From Azonexus sp. (lineage in GTDB: Bacteria > Pseudomonadota > Gammaproteobacteria > Burkholderiales > Rhodocyclaceae), in contig JAIRKE010000010.1 in NCBI GenBank assembly GCA_031260295.1, forward strand, positions 42,334 through 106,333: 64,000 nucleotides of DNA. The letters are read 5' to 3'. The notes below the pieces were generated by a model. That model worked only from the letters and a program-made list of their open reading frames with translations. It did no database searches and had not been told where the DNA came from. Positions 2,666 through 52,829 of this stretch are shown piece after piece. The stretch's first letter is position 1; every line of letters starts with the position of its first letter. The translations under genes were made by a program, and so were the position numbers.

Positions 2666-3586
2666 TCAAGCCTCAAGGCGGCCGAGCAGCAGGTATTCCA
2701 TGAGAGCCTTCTGGACGTGCAAACGGTTTTCCGCCTCGTCCCAAACCACCGATTGCAGGCCGTCGATGACTTCGGCAGTCACTTCCTCACCGCGATGCGC
2801 TGGCAGGCAGTGCATGAACAGCGCCTTTTCATCGGCGACGCCCATCATCTCGGCGTCGACGCACCAATCGGCAAAGGCTTTCATGCGCGCCTCGTTCTCG
2901 GCCTCGTAACCCATCGAGGTCCACACGTCGGTCGTCACCAGATTGGCGCCCCGGCAGGCTTCCATCGGATCGGCAAAGACCGTGAAACGGGCCGGGTCGA
3001 TCTTGCCGATCAGGTCGGGATTTATCTCGTAACCCGGCGGCGTCGACACATGCACCTTGAAATCGAGCACTTCGGCAGCCTGCAACCAGGTGTTGCACAT
3101 GTTGTTGGCATCGCCAACCCAGGCCACGGTCTTGCCCTGAATGTCGCCGCGATGCTCGATGTAGGTGTAAATGTCGGCCAGAATCTGACACGGATGGTAT
3201 TCGTTGGTCAGGCCATTGATGACCGGCACCCGCGAATTGGCGGCGAAGCGCTCGATGATGTCCTGCTCGAAGGTGCGGATCATCACGATGTCGCTCATCC
3301 GCGAAATGACCTGCGCCGCATCCTCGACCGGCTCACCGCGGCCGAGTTGCGAATCGCGGGTATTGAGGTAGATCGCCGCCCCGCCCAGTTGTTGCATGCC
3401 GGCCTCGAAGGACAGGCGGGTGCGGGTACTGGCCTTCTCGAAAATCATCACCAGCGTCCGGTCGCTGAGCGGCCAGTATTTCTGGTAGGACTTGAACTGA
3501 TTCTTGATCCAGCGCGTGCGCTCGAACACATGGTCAAACTCGTCGCGCGTGAAATCCTTGAATTGCAGAAAATGTTTGATCGCCAT
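2666..3586 (-). CDS. argF: Ornithine carbamoyltransferase
   Basis: A 306-residue anabolic ornithine transcarbamylase, making citrulline from ornithine and carbamoyl phosphate. The carbamoyl phosphate loop STRTR is at residues 53-57, the HPCQ motif is in the middle (EYHPCQILAD), and the ornithine/catalytic loop HCLPAHRGEEV is near residue 260. Length is normal. The start codon at 3586 lies only 5 bp from the end of a structured repeat (3592-3859) that separates this gene from argD, so any argD-argF read-through transcript must cross that repeat. An AGG within the repeat terminus is the only visible ribosome binding candidate. Confidence 0.97.
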   Translation of the reverse strand: MAIKHFLQFKDFTRDEFDHVFERTRWIKNQFKSYQKYWPLSDRTLVMIFEKASTRTRLSFEAGMQQLGGAAIYLNTRDSQLGRGEPVEDAAQVISRMSDIVMIRTFEQDIIERFAANSRVPVINGLTNEYHPCQILADIYTYIEHRGDIQGKTVAWVGDANNMCNTWLQAAEVLDFKVHVSTPPGYEINPDLIGKIDPARFTVFADPMEACRGANLVTTDVWTSMGYEAENEARMKAFADWCVDAEMMGVADEKALFMHCLPAHRGEEVTAEVIDGLQSVVWDEAENRLHVQKALMEYLLLGRLEA

Positions 3587-3591
3587 GATTC

Positions 3592-3859
3592 AACCTAAAA
3601 ACCGTGGTTGGACGTACCCGAGCAGGCCGTCATCGGGTGGGCTGGGCTGGCAAGGCGCGACGACGCCCCGCAGGAAGTCCCCTTGGGGGACGCGGCAGGC
3701 TCATGCCAGCAAGGAGGAAACGCCACCGGCGCGCCCGAGGGCGGCCTGCTCGGGTGCGTAGCGCCCTCACCCCAATGGGGACTGTCATCAGAGCCAGGAA
3801 AAGTAATATTCATGCGGGTTTCGTAAGGATTACAAGCGGTCAACTGCGGTTTTTAGGTT
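3592..3859. repeat. Structured intergenic repeat, copy 1 (argD-argF gap)
   Basis: A 268 bp non-housekeeping segment that recurs at 51026-51259. Its ends are 13 bp perfect inverted repeats (AACCTAAAAACCG at 3592-3604 and its complement at 3847-3859). Inside are two 21 bp hairpin units in opposite orientation, at 3617-3637 (CCCGAGCAGG...CATCGGG) and 3734-3754 (CCCGAGGG...CTGCTCGGG), reminiscent of paired REP units. Copy 1 carries about 30 extra bases not found in copy 2, around 3664-3692. The left end is 5 bp from the argF start codon, and the right end touches the argD stop codon. A TTG-initiated 82-codon frame on the minus strand (3843-3595) resembles the frame in copy 2, but I do not call it a gene. 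Confidence 0.85.
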
Positions 3860-5031
3860 CATGCCGCCAGAAACTCCTTGATTAGCGGCGCGGTTCTCTC
3901 CACTAGTTCGCGCGCATCGCTGTCGCTGAAAATGAGCGACGGCAACAAACGAATCACCGAATCCGCCGTGACGTTGATCAGCAGCCCGGCAGCCAGCGCC
4001 TTGCCGACCAGTTCGCCGCAGGGCCGATCCAGCTCAATACCGATCATCAGGCCCCGGCCGCGAATCTCGCGCACGCCCTCGACGCCTGCCAGCGCCTCGC
4101 CAAACAACTGGCGGATAAGGGCGCCGACGCGGGCCGCGTTATCCAGTAAGCCCTCCTCTTCCATCACCTGGATGGTCGTCAGGGCGGCGGCGCAAGCCAG
4201 GGGATTGCCGCCGAAGGTCGAGCCGTGATTGCCCGGCCCGAACAGCCCGGCCGCCCGGCCGCCGGCCAGGCAAGCGCCGATCGGCACACCCGAGCCCAAG
4301 CCCTTGGCCAGGGTGGCGATGTCTGGACTAACGCCGATCTGCTGATAGCCGAACCATTTGCCGGTACGGCCCATGCCGCACTGCACCTCGTCGCAGATCA
4401 TCAGCCAGCCCTGGCTGTCGCAGAATTCGCGCACACCCCGGTAATAGGATGGATCGACCAGATGGATGCCGCCTTCGCCTTGGAGGATTTCCAGCATCAC
4501 GGCCACGATGTTCTTGTTGTGCTCAGCGATGGAGCGAATCGCCTCCAGATCGCCGTAGGGAACCCGGACGAAACCCGACACCAGCGGCTCGAAACCCGCC
4601 TGGGTCTTGCGGTTGCCGGTCGCCGACAGGGTTGCCAGCGTGCGCCCGTGAAAAGCCTTCTCCATGACGATGATGGTCGGCAGCTCGATGCCCTGCTTGT
4701 GCCCGTAGAAGCGGGCCAGCTTGATCGCCGCCTCGTTGGCCTCGCACCCGGAATTACCGAAGAAAACCTCCTGCATGCCGGACAGTTCGCACAGCTTGTC
4801 CGCCAGTTGCTCCTGCTCGTCGATGCGGTACAGGTTGGAGGTATGCAGCAGGCGCCCGGCCTGGGCGGCGATGGTGGCGACCAGTTTGGGATGGGCATGA
4901 CCGAGGGTCGAAACAGCGATCCCGGACAGTGCATCCAGATATTCGCGCCCTGCGCAATCGAAGATCCGGCACCCCTGACCATAGCTGAAGGTCACGGGTA
5001 AACGGGCATAGGTGTTCATGACATGCGACAT
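3859..5031 (-). CDS. argD: Acetylornithine/succinyldiaminopimelate-type aminotransferase
   Basis: A class III PLP-dependent aminotransferase of 390 residues that converts N-acetylglutamate semialdehyde to N-acetylornithine. The PLP lysine is in TLAKGLGSGVPIGA; the cofactor-contacting DEVQCGMGRTG and the HGSTFGGNPLACAA segment are intact. I start it at the ATG at 5031 (MSHVMNTYARLP), where homologues begin; the ATG at 5064 would add 11 unrelated residues, and the ATG at 5019 is another possibility. It is the first of the three arginine genes, and its stop codon abuts the structured repeat before argF. Confidence 0.93.
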   Translation of the reverse strand: MSHVMNTYARLPVTFSYGQGCRIFDCAGREYLDALSGIAVSTLGHAHPKLVATIAAQAGRLLHTSNLYRIDEQEQLADKLCELSGMQEVFFGNSGCEANEAAIKLARFYGHKQGIELPTIIVMEKAFHGRTLATLSATGNRKTQAGFEPLVSGFVRVPYGDLEAIRSIAEHNKNIVAVMLEILQGEGGIHLVDPSYYRGVREFCDSQGWLMICDEVQCGMGRTGKWFGYQQIGVSPDIATLAKGLGSGVPIGACLAGGRAAGLFGPGNHGSTFGGNPLACAAALTTIQVMEEEGLLDNAARVGALIRQLFGEALAGVEGVREIRGRGLMIGIELDRPCGELVGKALAAGLLINVTADSVIRLLPSLIFSDSDARELVERTAPLIKEFLAA

Positions 5032-5170
5032 CAGGCAACCCCAACAAACGAAAACGGCGGCCATCGCCGCCGAAAAACGAGCCCCTCCGACAGATAAATT
5101 TCATCCGAAAGAGTTGCAGGAATTGGAATGTTAAGTGAAAAATAGAGGCTTGTATAGAACGACAAAAGCC

Positions 5171-20542: not shown

Positions 20543-21598
20543 ATGCTCGACCTGATTACCCATGTTGTGAAGATTTCGGCCCACCGCGACCGGACCGAAA
20601 TCAATTCAGCCATGGTCGACGCGCTGAACAGGTTGTTCCAGCCACGGCAGACCACCATCTACCGCTGCTACACCGGGCGCAACAAGGCTGTTTTCTTCCC
20701 TTGTGCCGGCATCGGGCCGAACGGTGCCTTCCTGCGCAACGCCTACCTGCCGGACCGCCAGTTCTGCCACGGCATCGATCAGGACCGGCTGCTGCAGCGC
20801 TGCCGCGCCGAAAGCTCGGTGGTACTCGAACGGCGCGACGACGGTTCGCACCGCATCGTGTTCCCGATCATCCGCCGCGAGGAACCGAGCTATATGATCG
20901 ATCTGGTCCTCCATGACGAGTTCTCGGCCGACCAGCGGGCGGCGCTGATGGGGCTGATCGAGTATTTCAATAACCACATCGCCCTGCTCGATTACGGCGA
21001 GGGTGATTCGCTGACCGGCCTGCTCAGCCGCAAGACCTTCGACAAACACCTGTTCGAACTGCTCGGCCAGGCCGCCAACGACGAACGGCTCGGCGGCAAC
21101 GGCAACGGCAGCGAGCCGCGGCGGCGCCGTGGCCGTTCCGACGCCGCCAGTCACTGGCTGGCGGTCTGCGACATCGACCACTTCAAGCAGGTCAACGACA
21201 ATTTCGGCCACCTGATCGGTGACGAGGTGTTGATCCTGGTCGCCCAGGTGATGCGTCGCTCCTTCCGTTTCGACGACCAGTTGTTCCGTTTCGGCGGCGA
21301 GGAATTCGTCGCGCTGTTACAGCCGACCGACGCCATATCGGCCCAAGCAACGCTGGAACGCTTCCGCAGCCAGATCGCCAGCCAAGTATTCAGCCGCATC
21401 GGCCACATCACCATCAGCATCGGCTTCAGTCACTTGCAACCGCACGACACGCCGGCCGACGCCATCGACCGCGCCGACGAGGCGCTGTATTTTGCCAAGC
21501 GCCACGGGCGCAACCGCATCGCCTGCCGCGACGATCTGGTCGCCAACCGGCAGTTGCCGGAGCGGGAGAGGATACGCGGGGAAATCGAGCTGTTCTAG
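20543..21598 (+). CDS. Diguanylate cyclase with N-terminal sensor domain
   Basis: A 351-residue protein. The C-terminal GGDEF domain begins DSLTGLLSRKTFD (near residue 155) and has the active-site loop FRFGGEEFVALL. Five residues before GGEEF is RFDD, matching the RxxD product-inhibition site, so it should be an active, feedback-inhibited enzyme making cyclic di-GMP from two GTP. The first 150 residues form a GAF-like soluble domain (IYRCYTGRNKAVFFPCAGIG...), with no membrane segments. The stop codon TAG is part of the CTAG boundary of the inverted-repeat element that follows. Confidence 0.92.
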   Translation: MLDLITHVVKISAHRDRTEINSAMVDALNRLFQPRQTTIYRCYTGRNKAVFFPCAGIGPNGAFLRNAYLPDRQFCHGIDQDRLLQRCRAESSVVLERRDDGSHRIVFPIIRREEPSYMIDLVLHDEFSADQRAALMGLIEYFNNHIALLDYGEGDSLTGLLSRKTFDKHLFELLGQAANDERLGGNGNGSEPRRRRGRSDAASHWLAVCDIDHFKQVNDNFGHLIGDEVLILVAQVMRRSFRFDDQLFRFGGEEFVALLQPTDAISAQATLERFRSQIASQVFSRIGHITISIGFSHLQPHDTPADAIDRADEALYFAKRHGRNRIACRDDLVANRQLPERERIRGEIELF

Positions 21599-21761
21599 TG
21601 TGCTGTCCCGCAAATACCTGCACATGAAATCGCGTCTTCGCGCCCACAGCGGCGTTGCAAATGCTCGCGATACCACCCGGTATCGCTACGCTTTGCGCCT
21701 TGCCGTGAACGCGAATCCAGCAATTTCATTGTGTGCAGCCATTCACGGGACAGCACACTAG
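21595..21761. mobile_element. MITE-like element with CTAG ends
   Basis: A 167 bp non-coding element with perfect 16 bp inverted termini CTAGTGTGCTGTCCCG (21595-21610 and complement at 21746-21761), and imperfect pairing further in. CTAG at both ends fits a YTAR target duplication of the kind made by some IS5-family elements. It is too short for a transposase. It sits exactly between two convergent genes, and each CTAG supplies the neighbouring gene's TAG stop. Its centre (about 21652-21700) resembles the centre of the element at 26256-26416. Confidence 0.85.
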
Positions 21762-23068
21762 TCGAGTACGGCGAGCCGCGCCTTCGGGCCGGGCGGGTGC
21801 TTGATGAAATACTGGCGGATGCCACGGATGATGGCTTCGGCCAGTTTCTCCTGATAGGCGTCGTCGTTGAGCCGGCGCTCCTCTTCTTGATTGGAGATGA
21901 AGGCCGTCTCAATCAGTGCCGAGGGAATGTCCGGCGCCTTGAGCACGGCGAAGCCGGCCTGCTCGACTTGGTTCTTGTGCAAGGTGTTGATCGCCCCCAG
22001 TTCGCCGAGCAGGTAGCGGCCGAGCTTCAGGCTGTCGGCGATGGTTGCCGTCTGCGACAGATCGAGCAGGGTACGGGCGAGGAAGGGATCGCGGGAGCGG
22101 ATATTGACGCCACCGACCAGATCGGCCTCGTTCTCGCGTTGCGCCAAAAGACGCGCCTGGGTACTCGAAGCGCCGCGCTCGGAGAGCACGAATACCGACG
22201 AACCACGGGCATCGGGCTTGATCCAGGCGTCGGCATGGATCGACAGGAAGAGGTCGGACTGCACCCGCCTTGCCTTCTGCACGCGGACGTTGAGCGGCAC
22301 AAAGAAATCGGAGTCGCGTGTCAGCACCGCACGCATGTTTGGTTCGGCGTCGATGAGCCGCTTCAGGCGCTTGGCGACCTTTAGCGTGACGTTCTTCTCG
22401 TAGGTGCCGCCCTTGCCGATGGCGCCCGGATCCTCGCCGCCGTGTCCGGGATCGAGGGTAATCGTCACTAGGCGGTCGACCACCGGTTTGCCCGATTTTT
22501 TCGCTGTTTGCACTTCCGGCGCTGCCAGCTTTTTTTCCTCGAGCGGGAAATCCTGCTCGTTCTTCAGCGGCTCGACCCCGTCCTCGCGCCCCTCCAGCAG
22601 GGCCATCAGCGGATCGGGCGGTTCCGCCGGATAAACGTCGAGCACCAGACGATGGCCGTATTCGCCGATCGGCACCAGTGTGAATACCTGCGGATTGACT
22701 TTGCCCTTCAGCTCCATGACCAAGCGCACGATGCCCGGTTTGAAGCGGCCGGCACGCAACAGCTTGATGTTGGGGTCGTCGGCGGCCAGCTTGCCGGCCA
22801 GACCGTCGAGCACGCTGTTGAATTCGACACCTTCGATGTCGACGACCAGGCGGTCGGGATTGTCGACCAGGAAATGGTTGAATTTGATCGCGGCGCTACA
22901 TTCGAGCGTGACGCGGGTGTAGTCGGCGGATGGCCAGACGCGCACGGCGAGCACCGCCGGCAGCTTCGCCGCAGCGCCAGCCAGCGGCGTCACTGAGAGG
23001 ATCAGCGCGGCACCGGCATAACGGAGGAGTTGCCGGCGTTCCAGGCTGAGGCCAAGCCTTCTAGACAT
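21758..23068 (-). CDS. amiC: N-acetylmuramoyl-L-alanine amidase with AMIN domain
   Basis: A 436-residue exported amidase that cleaves the amide between MurNAc and the stem peptide during cell separation. The N-terminus carries a twin-arginine-like or Sec signal (SLERRQLLRYAGAALILSV). An AMIN domain follows (AVRVWPSADYTRVTLE...), which targets the septum. The C-terminal Amidase_3 domain has the zinc ligands in TLDPGHGGEDPGAIG, the catalytic-region LSIHADAW and a final PSALIETAFISNQEEE. Start taken at the ATG at 23068; 67 bp overlap the 3' end of tsaE, the usual tsaE-ami order. The TAG stop is in the terminal CTAG of the MITE-like element. Confidence 0.93.
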   Translation of the reverse strand: MSRRLGLSLERRQLLRYAGAALILSVTPLAGAAAKLPAVLAVRVWPSADYTRVTLECSAAIKFNHFLVDNPDRLVVDIEGVEFNSVLDGLAGKLAADDPNIKLLRAGRFKPGIVRLVMELKGKVNPQVFTLVPIGEYGHRLVLDVYPAEPPDPLMALLEGREDGVEPLKNEQDFPLEEKKLAAPEVQTAKKSGKPVVDRLVTITLDPGHGGEDPGAIGKGGTYEKNVTLKVAKRLKRLIDAEPNMRAVLTRDSDFFVPLNVRVQKARRVQSDLFLSIHADAWIKPDARGSSVFVLSERGASSTQARLLAQRENEADLVGGVNIRSRDPFLARTLLDLSQTATIADSLKLGRYLLGELGAINTLHKNQVEQAGFAVLKAPDIPSALIETAFISNQEEERRLNDDAYQEKLAEAIIRGIRQYFIKHPPGPKARLAVLD

Positions 23069-23529
23069 TGCGCTCCTTCCGGCGAATCGACGACGGTTTC
23101 GAGTACCCGGCCCTGGCCCTCGTGGCGCAGGCGCAAACGGAGATCCGGCAGCGGGACGCAGCCCGTAGCGCGCTCCGGCCATTCGACCAGACAGACTGCG
23201 CCTTTGTTGAAGTATTCGCCAAATCCCGCATCGAGAAACTCCTCAGGTGACTCGAAACGATAAAAATCAAAGTGATATAAGTATAAGCTCGAAACCACAT
23301 AAACTTCAACCAGGGAATAGGTCGGACTTTTGACCGGACCGGTATGCCCGAGAGCACGGATCAGCGCCCGCGCCAGGGTCGTCTTGCCGGCCCCCAGGTC
23401 GCCTTCGAGGTAGATGACCAGCCCACCGCTCAGACGCGGCGCCAGCAAGGCCCCGAAGCGCTGCGTCGCGGCCTCGTCGGGCAGGTGATGAATGGTGGCA
23501 ACAGCGGCGGTAACATCGGGGCTATGCAC
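23002..23529 (-). CDS. tsaE: tRNA threonylcarbamoyladenosine synthesis ATPase TsaE
   Basis: About 175 residues. The Walker A GDLGAGKTTLARALIRALG, the SPTYSLVE switch segment, HFDFYRFESPEEFLDAGFGEYF and LVEWPERA are the conserved TsaE order. The protein works with TsaB and TsaD to make t6A on tRNAs reading ANN codons. No ATG precedes the domain; the GTG at 23529 is the only good start I see, and it overlaps the divergent queG start by 6 bp. Its 3' end overlaps amiC by 67 bp. The middle of the gene (about 23260-23320) is locally AT-rich. Confidence 0.9.
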   Translation of the reverse strand: MHSPDVTAAVATIHHLPDEAATQRFGALLAPRLSGGLVIYLEGDLGAGKTTLARALIRALGHTGPVKSPTYSLVEVYVVSSLYLYHFDFYRFESPEEFLDAGFGEYFNKGAVCLVEWPERATGCVPLPDLRLRLRHEGQGRVLETVVDSPEGAQCLEGLASAWNAGNSSVMPVPR

Positions 23530-26255: not shown

Positions 26256-26416
26256 GGAAGCTCTGAATAATTCCCCGCGAGTTGGCGCGCCCGGATTGGG
26301 GATGGGCCGCGAGGCGCAAAGCGCAGCAATACGGGCGGTATTGCGAGCATTTGCAGCGAAGCAGACCGCCCCAAGCCGGGATGCGACGACCGCGAGGGGA
26401 TTGTTCGGAGCTTTCC
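26256..26416. mobile_element. MITE-like inverted-repeat element
   Basis: A 161 bp non-coding element with imperfect inverted termini of about 24-26 bp (left begins GGAAGCTCTGAATAATTCCC; the complement of the right end begins GGAAAGCTCCGAACAATCCC). Its central segment (about 26311-26357), read on the minus strand, matches the centre of the element at 21595-21761 at roughly 85 percent by eye. The outer termini of the two elements differ. No convincing target duplication is seen. The right end abuts the stop codon of the DMT transporter gene. Confidence 0.75.
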
Positions 26417-48860: not shown

Positions 48861-49943
48861 TCAACGCCGCTCGACCCACCACAGCATGATTGCCGCGGCC
48901 AGCATGAACATCGCCGACGGCGCCGTGGCGCTGGCGAACGGCGGCCAGGAATTGATGATGCCGAGATTCGAGGATAGGCCATTCAGCGCGTAGAACAGGA
49001 TGCCAAGCATGACGCCGGCGAAGATTTTCAGGCTGACCCCGCCAACGCGGTTGTGCGAATAGCCGAACGGTAGCGCCAGCGCCACCATGACAAAGGCCGC
49101 CAGCGGATAGACCAGCTTCTTCCAGATGGCAATTTCGTAGCGTTCGGTCTGCTGCCGATTCTCCACCAGATGCCGGGTAAAGTTCAGCAGGCCGAACAGC
49201 GTCATCCGCTCGGGCGCCACCATCAACACTTTCAGCAGATCGGGCGTCACCGCCGAGTTCCAGTCCATGCCCGGCAGATGCTCGACGCGTGCCACATCCC
49301 CGACCAGCGTCGTGCGCGAGACATTGCTCAACTGCCAGGCGCCGGAGGCGTCGAAATGCGCTTCCTCGGCATCGATCACCGATTCCAGGGCATTGTTCGG
49401 GTCGAACTTGTAGATACGCAACTGGCGCAACGCCGAATCGGGGGTCACCGTGCGAATGTTGATGAAGCTGCGTCCGTCCTTGACCCACAGACCCGACGTG
49501 AACCCCTGCTGGACGATGGCCTCGCTGAGCGCCCTGGCCCGGATCTCGTTGCCGATGCGCTCGGTGAATGGCACCAGCGCCTCGCCGACGACAAAGGTCA
49601 GCACGGCGAGCAAGCCGGCAACGCGGAACAGGGTCAGCAGCAGATCGCGGGTGGCCAGGCCCGAGGCACGCAAAACAGTGATCTCCGAATGTCGCGCCAG
49701 GGTCGACAACGCATACAGCGTGCCAATCAGCGCCGCGATCGGAATCAGCTCGTAGATGAAGCTGGGCAAATTAAGGGCGACGGTCAGGATGGCGTACCCG
49801 AGCTGGTAGTTCTTGTCGACCTTGCGCAATTCGTTGATCAGGTCGAAAAAGCTGAACAGCGCGAGGAAGGCCAACAGGACGAGAAAAACCGCAGCCAGGG
49901 TTTCGCGCATCACGTAGCGCTGGTACAGGCGCAGGCGGAACAT
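48861..49943 (-). CDS. lptG: LPS export ABC transporter permease LptG
   Basis: A 360-residue inner membrane permease of the LptB2FG complex, which extracts lipopolysaccharide from the inner membrane. It has a helical N-terminus (RLYQRYVMRETLAAVFLVLLAFLALFSFFDLINEL), a periplasmic jellyroll domain in the middle, and three C-terminal helices with FGYSHNRVGGVSLKIFAGVMLGILFY. Start at the ATG at 49943 overlaps the lptF stop (ATGA). Confidence 0.95.
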   Translation of the reverse strand: MFRLRLYQRYVMRETLAAVFLVLLAFLALFSFFDLINELRKVDKNYQLGYAILTVALNLPSFIYELIPIAALIGTLYALSTLARHSEITVLRASGLATRDLLLTLFRVAGLLAVLTFVVGEALVPFTERIGNEIRARALSEAIVQQGFTSGLWVKDGRSFINIRTVTPDSALRQLRIYKFDPNNALESVIDAEEAHFDASGAWQLSNVSRTTLVGDVARVEHLPGMDWNSAVTPDLLKVLMVAPERMTLFGLLNFTRHLVENRQQTERYEIAIWKKLVYPLAAFVMVALALPFGYSHNRVGGVSLKIFAGVMLGILFYALNGLSSNLGIINSWPPFASATAPSAMFMLAAAIMLWWVERR

Positions 49944-51025
49944 CAGCGACGCCTCCGGGAGAAGGGATTGCCAACGCTCATGCGCTGAAAGAACAGTACC
50001 AGCAAGGGCAGCAACATCAGCGCATGCACCGCCCACAAGCCGATCCAGAATGACAGGCGGCCTTGCGACACCCAAGTCTGGCTGACCGACAGCAGATTGT
50101 TGTAAATGGCATAGATCGGAATGGCGATCAACAGATTGGCCGAACGTCCCGCCCGCGGGTTGACGAAACCGAGCGGAATCGCCATCAGCGCCAAGACCAG
50201 CGCCGATACCGGCACGCCGAAGCGCCACACCAGTTCGCCGCGCGCCCGCTCGCTGCTGTCGAGCAGCAGGCTGGTGATCGGCATCGTCTTCGGCGAGTCG
50301 GCCACCGGCTTGGCCTCGCCATCCTCGATGCGGACATGGTAACGCTCGAATTCCATGATCCTGAATTCCGGAGTCCCCGGCTCAACCTCGTAGCGGCGCC
50401 CGCTTTCCAGCACCACGAAGCGGTCGCCGTTCTCGGCAACGCGCTGGTGGCCGGTATCGGACATCACCACGCCGAGCCTGCCCTCCTGTACCGAGGCGAC
50501 AAAGATATTGCCGACCGTGCTGGCATCCTCGGCCACGGCCTCGACGAACAACACCCGCCGGCCACCGCTGGCCTCCTGGAAGGCGCCGGGCGACACCTGG
50601 GCCAATTCGCTGCGCGCCGACAGTTTTTGCTTGTATTCATCGCGGCTGTAATTGGCCCACGGCGACAGAAACCAGGACAGCAAGGCGATGGCGCCGACGA
50701 TGGGCAGCGCGAAGCGCAAAACCGGGCGCACCCAGGCGGTCAACGGCTGGCCGCTGGTAAACCAGATGACCATTTCCGAATCCCGGTAGGCACGGGACAA
50801 ACTGAGCAAAATCGCGACGAAAAGCGTCAGCGACAGCAAAACCGGCATGAAATTCAAGGCGGCGAAGCCGAGCAGCGAAGCCACGGCCTCCGGTGCAATG
50901 CGCCCGCCAGCCGCATCCTTGAGCAGGCGAATCAATTGGGTGGAGGTCAGGATGGCCAGCAGCGCAACGCTGATGCCGGCGGCTGCCTGCGCGAATTCAC
51001 GCCGGGCGGCGCGCTCGAATATCAT
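49943..51025 (-). CDS. lptF: LPS export ABC transporter permease LptF
   Basis: A 360-residue permease paired with LptG. It begins MIFERAARREFAQAAAGISVALLAILTSTQLIRLL, has the periplasmic domain with LFVEAVAEDASTVGNIFVASVQEG, and closes with the NPRAGRSANLLIAIPIYAIYNNLL helices. The start codon at 51025 touches the second copy of the structured repeat; the GAGG that could act as ribosome binding site lies inside the repeat's terminal stem. Confidence 0.95.
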   Translation of the reverse strand: MIFERAARREFAQAAAGISVALLAILTSTQLIRLLKDAAGGRIAPEAVASLLGFAALNFMPVLLSLTLFVAILLSLSRAYRDSEMVIWFTSGQPLTAWVRPVLRFALPIVGAIALLSWFLSPWANYSRDEYKQKLSARSELAQVSPGAFQEASGGRRVLFVEAVAEDASTVGNIFVASVQEGRLGVVMSDTGHQRVAENGDRFVVLESGRRYEVEPGTPEFRIMEFERYHVRIEDGEAKPVADSPKTMPITSLLLDSSERARGELVWRFGVPVSALVLALMAIPLGFVNPRAGRSANLLIAIPIYAIYNNLLSVSQTWVSQGRLSFWIGLWAVHALMLLPLLVLFFQRMSVGNPFSRRRR

Positions 51026-51259
51026 CCTGGAAACCTCAGTTGGACGCGCCCGAGCAGGCTGTCATCGGGCGAGCTGGCAAGGCGCGACGACGCGGCAGGC
51101 TCGTGCCTGCAAGGAGGAGCAACGCCGCCAGCGCGCCCGAGGGCTGCCTGATCGGGTGCGTAGCGTGCTCACCCATCTGATGATGTTTGTTGAAGTCTGA
51201 AAAGTGAATGTTCATGCGGCTGCTATCAACAGCACAAGCGGTCAACTGCGGCTTCCAGG
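51026..51259. repeat. Structured intergenic repeat, copy 2 (lptF-pepA gap)
   Basis: A 234 bp copy of the element at 3592-3859. The ends are inverted (CCTGGAAACCTCAGTTGG at 51026, complement of the right end CCTGGAAGCCGCAGTTGACC from 51259). Outer bases differ from those of copy 1 yet pair within this copy. The two 21 bp hairpin units are at 51049-51069 and 51136-51156; a GCAGGC/GCCTGC hairpin lies between them. The element covers the 5' untranslated region of lptF and lies upstream of divergent pepA. Confidence 0.85.
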
Positions 51260-51335
51260 ATCACGCTTTGACGAAACTGAAAAATTGCGGGGATAATCCT
51301 GCGGATACTGACATCCCCCCGAACAGGAGCAGCCT

Positions 51336-52829
51336 GTGGAATTTAGCATAAAAAGCGGTAGCCCGGAAAAGCAGCGCAGCGCCTGTGTCGTGGTTGGCAT
51401 CTTCGAATTGCGCAAACTGACCCTGGCCGCGGAACTGCTCGACAAGGCCGCTGGCGGCGCCATCGGCGACATCGTCCGGCGCGGCGACATGGACGGCAAG
51501 AGCGGCACCACCCTGCTGCTGCACAATGTGCCCGGTACCCTGTGCGACCGCGTGCTGCTGGTCGGCCTCGGCAAGGAAAGGGATTTCCGCGAGAAGGAGT
51601 TTGCTCAGGCCATTCGCACCGCGGTCAAGACGCTGAACGAAACCGGTGCCTTCGACGCCTCCATTTTCCTCACCGAACTCGCCGTCAAGAAGCGCAACAT
51701 CGCTTGGCGCATCCGCCAGACCGTGATCGTCGCCCGCGACGCGACCTACCGGTTCGAGCAATTCAAGAGCAAGAAGAACGAAGTCCGCCGCCCGCTGCGC
51801 AAACTGACACTCGGCGTCGAGCGCCGCAATGAGCTGGCCCTGGCCGAACAGGCGCTGACTCAGGGCTCGGCCATCGCCGAAGGCATGGCCTTGGCGAAAG
51901 ATCTCGGCAACCTGCCGCCGAACGTCTGCAACCCAACCTACCTCGCCAGCCGAGCACAGACCCTGGCCGACGAACTGGGCCTCCACTGCGAGATTCTCGA
52001 GCGCGCCGACATGGAAAAACTCGGCATGAACGCGCTGCTGTCGGTCGCCAATGGCACCCACCAGCCGCCGAAGCTGATCGTGCTCGGCTACCAGGGCGCC
52101 CGCTCCAACGAGAAGCCGCTGGTGCTGGTCGGCAAGGGCATCACCTTCGACAGCGGCGGCGTTTCGCTGAAGCCGGCCGCCGACATGGACGAGATGAAAT
52201 ACGACATGTGCGGCGCCGCCAGTGTGCTCGGCACCCTCGTCGCGGCAGCCCTGATGAAGCTGCCGCTCAACCTGAAGGTACTGATCCCGGCCACCGAGAA
52301 CATGCCGGGCGGCAACGCCACCCGCCCCGGCGACATCGTCGCTTCGCTGTCCGGTCAGACCATCGAGATTCTCAACACTGACGCCGAGGGCCGGCTGATC
52401 CTGTGCGACACGCTGAGCTACGCGGAGCGCTTCGATCCCGACACCGTGATCGACGTCGCCACCTTGACCGGCGCCTGCGTCGTCGCCCTGGGCGGCGTCG
52501 CCAGCGGCCTGTTCGCCAACAAGGACAGCCTGGCCCGCGATCTGCTCGAAGCTGGCGACGAGGCACATGACCGCGCCTGGCACCTGCCGCTGTGGGATGA
52601 CTACCAGGAATTGCTGAAGAGTCCGTTCGCCGACATGACCAACAGCGGCGGCCGCTGGGCCGGCCCTGTGACCGCCGCCTGCTTCCTGTCGCGCTTTGCC
52701 AAGAAATTCGACTGGGCCCATCTCGACATCGCCGGCACGGCCTGGAAATCGGGCGCCGACAAGGGCGCCACCGGCCGGCCGGTACCTCTATTGGCCCACT
52801 ATCTCCTGCAACGCGCAGGCCACAATTGA
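51336..52829 (+). CDS. pepA: Leucyl aminopeptidase (M17, PepA)
   Basis: A 497-residue cytosolic dizinc aminopeptidase. Metal ligands lie in LVGKGITFDSGGVSLKP and the signature NTDAEGRLILCDTL. In many bacteria PepA also binds DNA (carAB regulation, Xer recombination). Starts with GTG at 51336, with AGGAG 8 bases upstream. Divergent from lptF across the structured repeat; the stop overlaps the holC start. Confidence 0.97.
   Translation: MEFSIKSGSPEKQRSACVVVGIFELRKLTLAAELLDKAAGGAIGDIVRRGDMDGKSGTTLLLHNVPGTLCDRVLLVGLGKERDFREKEFAQAIRTAVKTLNETGAFDASIFLTELAVKKRNIAWRIRQTVIVARDATYRFEQFKSKKNEVRRPLRKLTLGVERRNELALAEQALTQGSAIAEGMALAKDLGNLPPNVCNPTYLASRAQTLADELGLHCEILERADMEKLGMNALLSVANGTHQPPKLIVLGYQGARSNEKPLVLVGKGITFDSGGVSLKPAADMDEMKYDMCGAASVLGTLVAAALMKLPLNLKVLIPATENMPGGNATRPGDIVASLSGQTIEILNTDAEGRLILCDTLSYAERFDPDTVIDVATLTGACVVALGGVASGLFANKDSLARDLLEAGDEAHDRAWHLPLWDDYQELLKSPFADMTNSGGRWAGPVTAACFLSRFAKKFDWAHLDIAGTAWKSGADKGATGRPVPLLAHYLLQRAGHN

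Follow-up and report, generated by a model that had tools for sequence, protein, structure and literature searches.

The two structured repeats in the window, by which we mean the whole analysed stretch of 64,000 nucleotides, very probably represent a family of non-autonomous miniature transposons (MITEs) of about 234 bp, which moves by its terminal inverted repeats (TIRs) and carries a modular domain that folds on one specific strand. The family shows the MITE features that we tested, including small size, dispersed copies and the lack of a transposase gene, and is in this respect of a known kind; its conserved fold and modular tip are new. A reading of the sequence alone had proposed a dispersed, non-coding, structured and mobile family, a proposal borne out by copies in Rhodocyclales and far beyond.

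Two window copies and a dispersed family

The covariance model finds both window copies (Table 1), confirming the repeated structured element to which the sequence-only reading had pointed; the 46 copies on which the model was trained included copy 2 and left out copy 1. That reading had bounded copy 1 at 3592-3859, where the element is indeed present, with its true ends at 3594 and 3857. It had not mentioned TIRs or target duplications, which we found at both copies, the duplications matching at four of five bases in each. The two hairpin units that it described do contain the CCCGA...TCGGG motifs, but together they form a single long stem, each unit being one of its strands, and are not separate hairpins; in copy 1, the 34-nt arms 3612-3645/3726-3759 are 82% complementary. 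Copy 1, situated between argD and argF, exceeds copy 2, situated between lptF and pepA, mainly by a 27-bp insert that alignment places at about 3662-3688. This insert is found again, nearly alone, elsewhere in the same genome (G000:C32:38801-38826), and it recurs in many other members of the genus; at nearly the same apical position, other copies (L230 and L231) have different inserts.

Table 1. Coordinates of the two copies, their neighbouring genes and related palindromes in the window
Feature	Position	Strand	Evidence
argF, ornithine carbamoyltransferase	2666..3586	-	NCBIfam, over cut-off
Left target duplication of copy 1, TTCAA	3589..3593	.	sequence and family TSD analysis
Copy 1, full element, 264 bp	3594..3857	+	covariance model, 139 bits
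Left terminal inverted repeat of copy 1	3594..3611	+	sequence and consensus fold
Long 5' hairpin of copy 1, its two strands being the two units of the sequence-only reading	3612..3757 (end approximate)	+	
Apical 27-bp insert within the hairpin, lacking in copy 2	3662..3688 (exact ends ambiguous)	+	alignment
Right terminal inverted repeat of copy 1	3840..3857	-	sequence and consensus fold
Right target duplication of copy 1, TTCAT	3858..3862	.	sequence
argD, acetylornithine transaminase; stop codon 3859-3861 inside the TTCAT duplication	3859..5064	-	NCBIfam, over cut-off
Palindrome, 167 bp, near-perfect, ends CTAGTGTGCTGTCCCG, same apical domain	21595-21761	-	fold z -13
Amidase-like gene; stop codon in the CTAG end of the 21595-21761 palindrome	21758-23182	-	NCBIfam, below cut-offs
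Weaker palindrome, degenerate apical domain	26276-26394	+	covariance model, 21 bits
lptF; start codon 51023-51025 inside the ATCAT duplication	49943..51025	-	NCBIfam, over cut-off
Left target duplication of copy 2, ATCAT	51021..51025	.	
Copy 2, full element, 234 bp	51026..51259	+	covariance model, 201 bits
Apical domain of copy 2, GCAAGGCGC...GCAACGCCGC	51077..51128	+	exact core pattern, two occurrences in the window and none in 100 shuffles
Right target duplication of copy 2, ATCAC	51260..51264	.	
pepA, leucyl aminopeptidase	51336..52829	+	NCBIfam, over cut-off

Compared with its own genome by BLAST, copy 1 retrieved copy 2 (E 2.4e-27) and a third copy (E 8.2e-22); the third full copy lies on another contig (G000:C29:11256-11489). 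The covariance model gave five matches in this genome, with at least three full copies among the matches listed, and the case in which only two copies exist, arisen by local duplication, is excluded. By exact patterns, copies occur in 19 of 100 relatives and in 18 of 399 genomes of the order, and a scan of named genomes matched at least 119 stretches, the matches listed including Rhodoferax, Thiobacillus, Gallionellaceae, Sulfuricella and Nitrosomonas as well as Polaromonas, Sedimenticola, Thiotrichaceae and Lysobacterales. The family spans Beta- and Gammaproteobacteria. At E ≤ 0.001 the covariance model found matches in 38 of 184 genomes of the class, and at 80 bits or more in 16 of the 184; the weak matches (about 34-60 bits) mostly fall on the apical domain or on other palindromes, in some cases on both strands, and their E-values therefore mean little. 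Single copies used as queries gave one match in plasmids and none in phages or in E. coli.

The Azonexus MAG G055, from the genus of the window genome, probably carries about 100 copies, judging by its 213 end motifs with at most two mismatches (2 for a reversed-pattern control). Most of the unmatched TIRs sampled there had a partner with more mismatches, met a contig end or were decayed, and one was joined to a stretch that we take to be a transposase. An odd TIR at L132 led to nothing further.

Ends, target sites and transposase

The anatomy of the copies shows that the family transposes by its TIRs and duplicates 5 bp of target. Copies typically end in 18-bp TIRs, CCTnnAnnCCTCAGTTGG with its inverse at the opposite end. 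The two arms of one copy agree even where copies differ from each other (CCTAGAAACC, CCTAGATTCC, CCTTGAAACC, CCTAAAAACC, CCTACTTTCC), and at each of the 12 outer positions the arms match in 126-139 of 143 copies. The target-site duplication (TSD), alignment and gene analyses drew on 147 copies, 143 of which had flanks for TSDs; all 147 contain AGTTGGACG and GCGGTCAACT by construction of the search patterns, and those from the named-genome scan also contain the right-hand GAGG, likewise part of the pattern; the invariance of these letters, including pair 21-238, therefore carries no meaning, and copies found with the model vary at them.

The duplicated target is NTNAN and mostly palindromic, its first and last bases being complementary in 75 of 80 perfect duplications. 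Among the 143 distinct copies with flanks, the duplication matches at 5/5 bases in 80, at 4/5 in 42, at 3/5 in 8 and at 0-2 in 13, and identity is 77-95% at each of the five positions compared with 17-34% at 15 neighbouring offsets. In G111, a three-contig genome from the same family, the TSD is perfect in 21 of 22 copies and 20 measure 231-235 bp, the remaining two measuring 134 and 444 bp. Empty sites were found as well. The argD end was fetched from 29 of 55 relatives with an argD match, and in 23 of these 29 Azonexus relatives the argF-argD junction is empty, with the genes 5-8 bp apart; CATGATTCAGGCCGCC is one example, as against CATGA-TTCAA-[264 bp]-TTCAT-GCCGCC in the window. No clean argF-argD junction was found by pattern in the remaining six, none of which showed the element; the gap is about 9 bp in two, and a longer spacer free of the element is present in one.

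Several variants were seen among the copies. Short forms of 134 bp (L228, L229 and L289) keep both ends and lack most of the long hairpin, and their duplications match at 5/5 bases in L228 and 4/5 in L229 and L289; because these forms retain ends and duplications, movement may be possible without the hairpin tip. Three G111 copies (L295, L298 and L305) probably sit in another dispersed repeat, since all three have the flank ATCTGGGTTCAA in common. Divergent members found with the model end in CCCAGATTAATCAGTTG (L324) or CCTAGATTAATCAGCTG (L322), the latter end being changed on both arms.

The stop codon of the facing gene lies exactly in the TSD in 31 of 107 cases and the facing start codon in 19 of 119, as determined with a crude ORF caller, and no other offset in the range listed (-20 to 12) holds more than three stop or start cases on either side. 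For this analysis 121 copies passed the flank and gene filters, and 8 with an ORF spanning the element were set aside, leaving 113 with two flanking genes. Since NTNAN contains TGA and TAA, and ATGAT contains ATG, the duplication restores the codon; insertions may survive at gene borders in this manner, the duplicated NTNAN giving back a stop (TGA/TAA) or start (ATG) codon. We infer that copies at codons reflect survival at harmless sites and not active targeting. Landing in stop and start codons with a duplication that restores them would be a simple rule for spread in compact genomes.

The transposase would be supplied in trans and act on the TIRs, and the likeliest source is the IS1380 family, to which we give about even chances. 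IS1380-type (PF13701) elements in the searched genomes have the ends CCTTAATTCCGCAAC, and those with a duplicated 5-mer have CCCAGATAATCCAT (ATAAA) and CCTGAATCCGTGTT (AAAAG, AGATC); these ends, from other genomes, are similar and not identical to those of the element. The end search required equal 5-mers and so is no independent test of the 5 bp, and at 10 of its 14 loci it returned either no pair or pairs that look like chance. Of the three duplications at CC ends, two depart from NTNAN, and in a sister copy (L384) the 5-mer is one base out. For ISEcp1, PMC7864471 gives CCTAGATTCTACGT as the IRL and TCATA as a 5-bp duplication, a duplication length common to ISEcp1 and the element; the ends of IS1380 and ISEcp1 begin CCT, close to CCTAGATTC, whereas these are autonomous IS with a transposase and the target fit is partial in the members examined. 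PMC10813416 gave a further lead, on IS1380 only.

The PF13701 search for a parent covered 60 genomes (own genome included) and then 23, 3 and 30 sequence sets, partly overlapping, two of the 23 being the same MAG. In the genomes searched we found no full-length element that combines the same ends with a transposase, and IS1380-type genes, called by PF13701 only, in some. The own genome gave 0 PF13701 matches, G111 one fragment and two weak matches with no full IS1380 gene, and G055 one strong IS1380-type gene, at which matching ends could not be recognised. Three short elements of 163-178 bp (L331, L338 and L332) have the same CCTnnAnnCCTCAGTTG ends around unrelated interiors, which is what recognition of the ends alone, in trans, would lead one to expect.

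Strand-specific fold

The strand that folds is the + strand of the window. Its fold z-scores are -6.3 (as RNA) and -7.2 (as DNA) in copy 1 and -6.7 (as RNA) in copy 2, with 0 of 200 shuffles folding as well as the + strand copies, and the minus strand of copy 1 scores -3.8. From 133 copies of 228-240 bp without N, clustering retained 46 below 80% identity, and their consensus fold comprises 57 pairs, made up of the 18-bp stem of the TIRs and, stacked on this stem, a long hairpin. Across the 46 copies, 40 of these 57 pairs have one or more double changes, and the covariation score is 0.503 compared with 0.162 after shuffling and 0.074-0.106 with slid partners. The MFE is lower on the + strand in all 46 copies. 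Where the commonest form of a pair in the + structure is Watson-Crick, we counted 157 G-U against 28 A-C cells; because predicting this structure from the + strand biases it towards G-U on that strand, we used as controls the 38 pairs predicted from both strands (83 G-U against 20 A-C) and the minus-strand structure (39 against 88).

Internal loops are conserved as well: GA faces GA at columns 68-69/98-99 in 36 of the 46 copies and at columns 65-66/102-103 in 19 of 46, where it alternates with AA/TT (14 of 46), and some G-U pairs are common (columns 35-134 UG in 34 of 46; columns 36-133 GU in 31 of 46). Together, covariation, strand bias and loops support selection for a single-strand fold. 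This fold is kept among copies more than 20% diverged and in two large proteobacterial groups, and for this reason something appears to select for it.

The folded strand would act as a single-stranded nucleic acid, most likely RNA, and we lean towards RNA over DNA. An action as single-stranded DNA, during transposition or replication for instance, seems rather unlikely to us; copies between tandem genes show no bias to sense (25 sense and 40 antisense), which fits it, as does the DNA fold z-score of copy 1, but tolerance of G-U is more in keeping with RNA, even if DNA too can have G-T, and 5-bp TSDs and TIRs point, by what is known of IS mechanisms, to double-stranded transposition. If the folded strand is RNA, as we favour, the fold might serve as a double-stranded structure for processing, decay or insulation and so make the insertion less costly; the absence of a sense bias in tandem-gene copies makes such a processing or insulating role a weak suggestion.

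Selection is also the better explanation when set against a plain MITE whose covariation arises without it, by template switching in replication that keeps the arms of a long palindrome alike. Template-switch correction is known for quasipalindromes and nearly all helices here belong to one nested palindrome, but correction would remove the non-Watson-Crick GA/GA positions, the common G-U pairs and the strand asymmetry, all of which persist, and we consider this account improbable.

Far less probable is a REP/BIME-type repeat, the arrangement to which the two units had been likened, in which a RAYT (Y1 HUH) transposase would mobilise a pair of inverted REP hairpins. The CCCGA...TCGGG motifs are in inverted arrangement and a conserved GTAG adjoins the hairpin, but pairing inside each unit does not covary (0.240 compared with 0.231 shuffled; 54.9% of cells paired), whereas pairing between the two units does (0.908 compared with 0.238 shuffled; 91.7% of cells paired). 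Moreover, the unit is not a short hairpin of 20-40 nt, and the ends are transposon-type TIRs with 5-bp TSDs; such duplications are not known from REP sequences.

We give least credence to a small minus-strand gene of about 59 aa (...LAGxSLPRRR...GASN), since, although a particular minus-strand frame runs uninterrupted across the body of 106 of the 142 copies without N that were tested (32-67 for the other five frames), an excess of third-position mismatches is absent in 455 pairs (2318/3366/3047 at codon positions 1/2/3), lengths vary in single-base steps, a stop interrupts that frame in 36 of 142, and the only annotated CDS seen over a copy is a hypothetical protein on the opposite strand in a Polaromonas plasmid. 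The element had been described as coding for no recognised protein, and in agreement with this we saw no coding constraint. An attC-type recombination site, considered on account of GTTGGAC/GGTCAAC motifs, was dropped by reasoning, as the motif order is reversed.

Known elements and the shared apical domain

As the sequence-only reading had said, we know of no named family that the element matches, and we found none in Rfam or in the literature searched. At gathering score, Rfam gave no match in the window or in 17 loci, and at a looser threshold none in 3 loci; 20 stretches with related palindromes gave six microRNA or snoRNA matches below gathering scores (best E 0.0007). The family was not found in the open-licence full texts searched, where a search for literal sequence returned only a plant paper, by one 12-letter term.

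Bacterial MITEs are usually seen as IS scraps without a conserved interior. Correia elements/NEMIS of Neisseria differ from the element in having a TA target and a length of 100-160 bp. Like it, they are short inverted-repeat elements, and according to PMC2649163 they can be bound or cut by RNase III, as the element might be too. MITEAba12 and its like (PMC6382973) are similarly short, non-coding and mobile, with TIRs, a TSD and many copies. In contrast to MITEs of that type, the element has a covarying fold deeply conserved across Beta- and Gammaproteobacteria, no identified parent, and an apical domain common to other palindromes. QMITE2 of Coxiella, as described in PMC5896051, is a MITE of 150-190 bp with a very stable hairpin, has short REP-like versions without TIRs and overlaps gene 3' ends, and differs in its direct repeats of 7-11 bp.

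The apical domain of the element is modular and recurs in other palindromes whose ends differ. This hairpin tip, GGCAAGGCGC...[variable hairpin]...GCAACGCCGCC, is common to further long palindromes that were reached through weak covariance-model matches. Ends of the type TATACCC...GGGTATA are found in most copies of G639 and in G640, G638 and G643, ends of the type CCTTTAACG... in 3 of 4 copies in G602, and in other places the tip is borne by hairpins of about 100 nt. TA and CTAG are the target duplications of IS630- and IS481-type elements. Of 40 palindrome stretches that had been selected for their matches to the model, 12 have the exact core pattern and 33 a looser core, defined by an expression that was composed with the sequences already in view. 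The model again matches every one of the 40 (43 matches), as it must given their selection, and their structure covaries (0.334 compared with 0.092 shuffled) in an alignment that was fitted to the model and leans towards it.

Tentatively, and with less than even expectation by a wide measure, the apical domain could be an independent selfish or regulatory module that travels as cargo of several unrelated miniature transposons at gene borders. In that event the 5-bp NTNAN, TA and CTAG end types would each carry it, and a host or transposon factor recognising it would explain its retention in many palindromes. Being common to them, the domain links several palindrome families and raises the question of what reads these hairpins.

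Searched against plasmids, one hairpin with the apical domain gave three weak partial matches. Within the window, the exact core is present only in the 21595-21761 palindrome and in copy 2, and in 0 of 100 shuffles. Both window palindromes (21595-21761 and 26276-26394) score 21 bits with the model, the next best match in the stretch scoring 10. Among the 40 stretches are also a divergent member of the family (L419) and a MITE with the same ends (L431).
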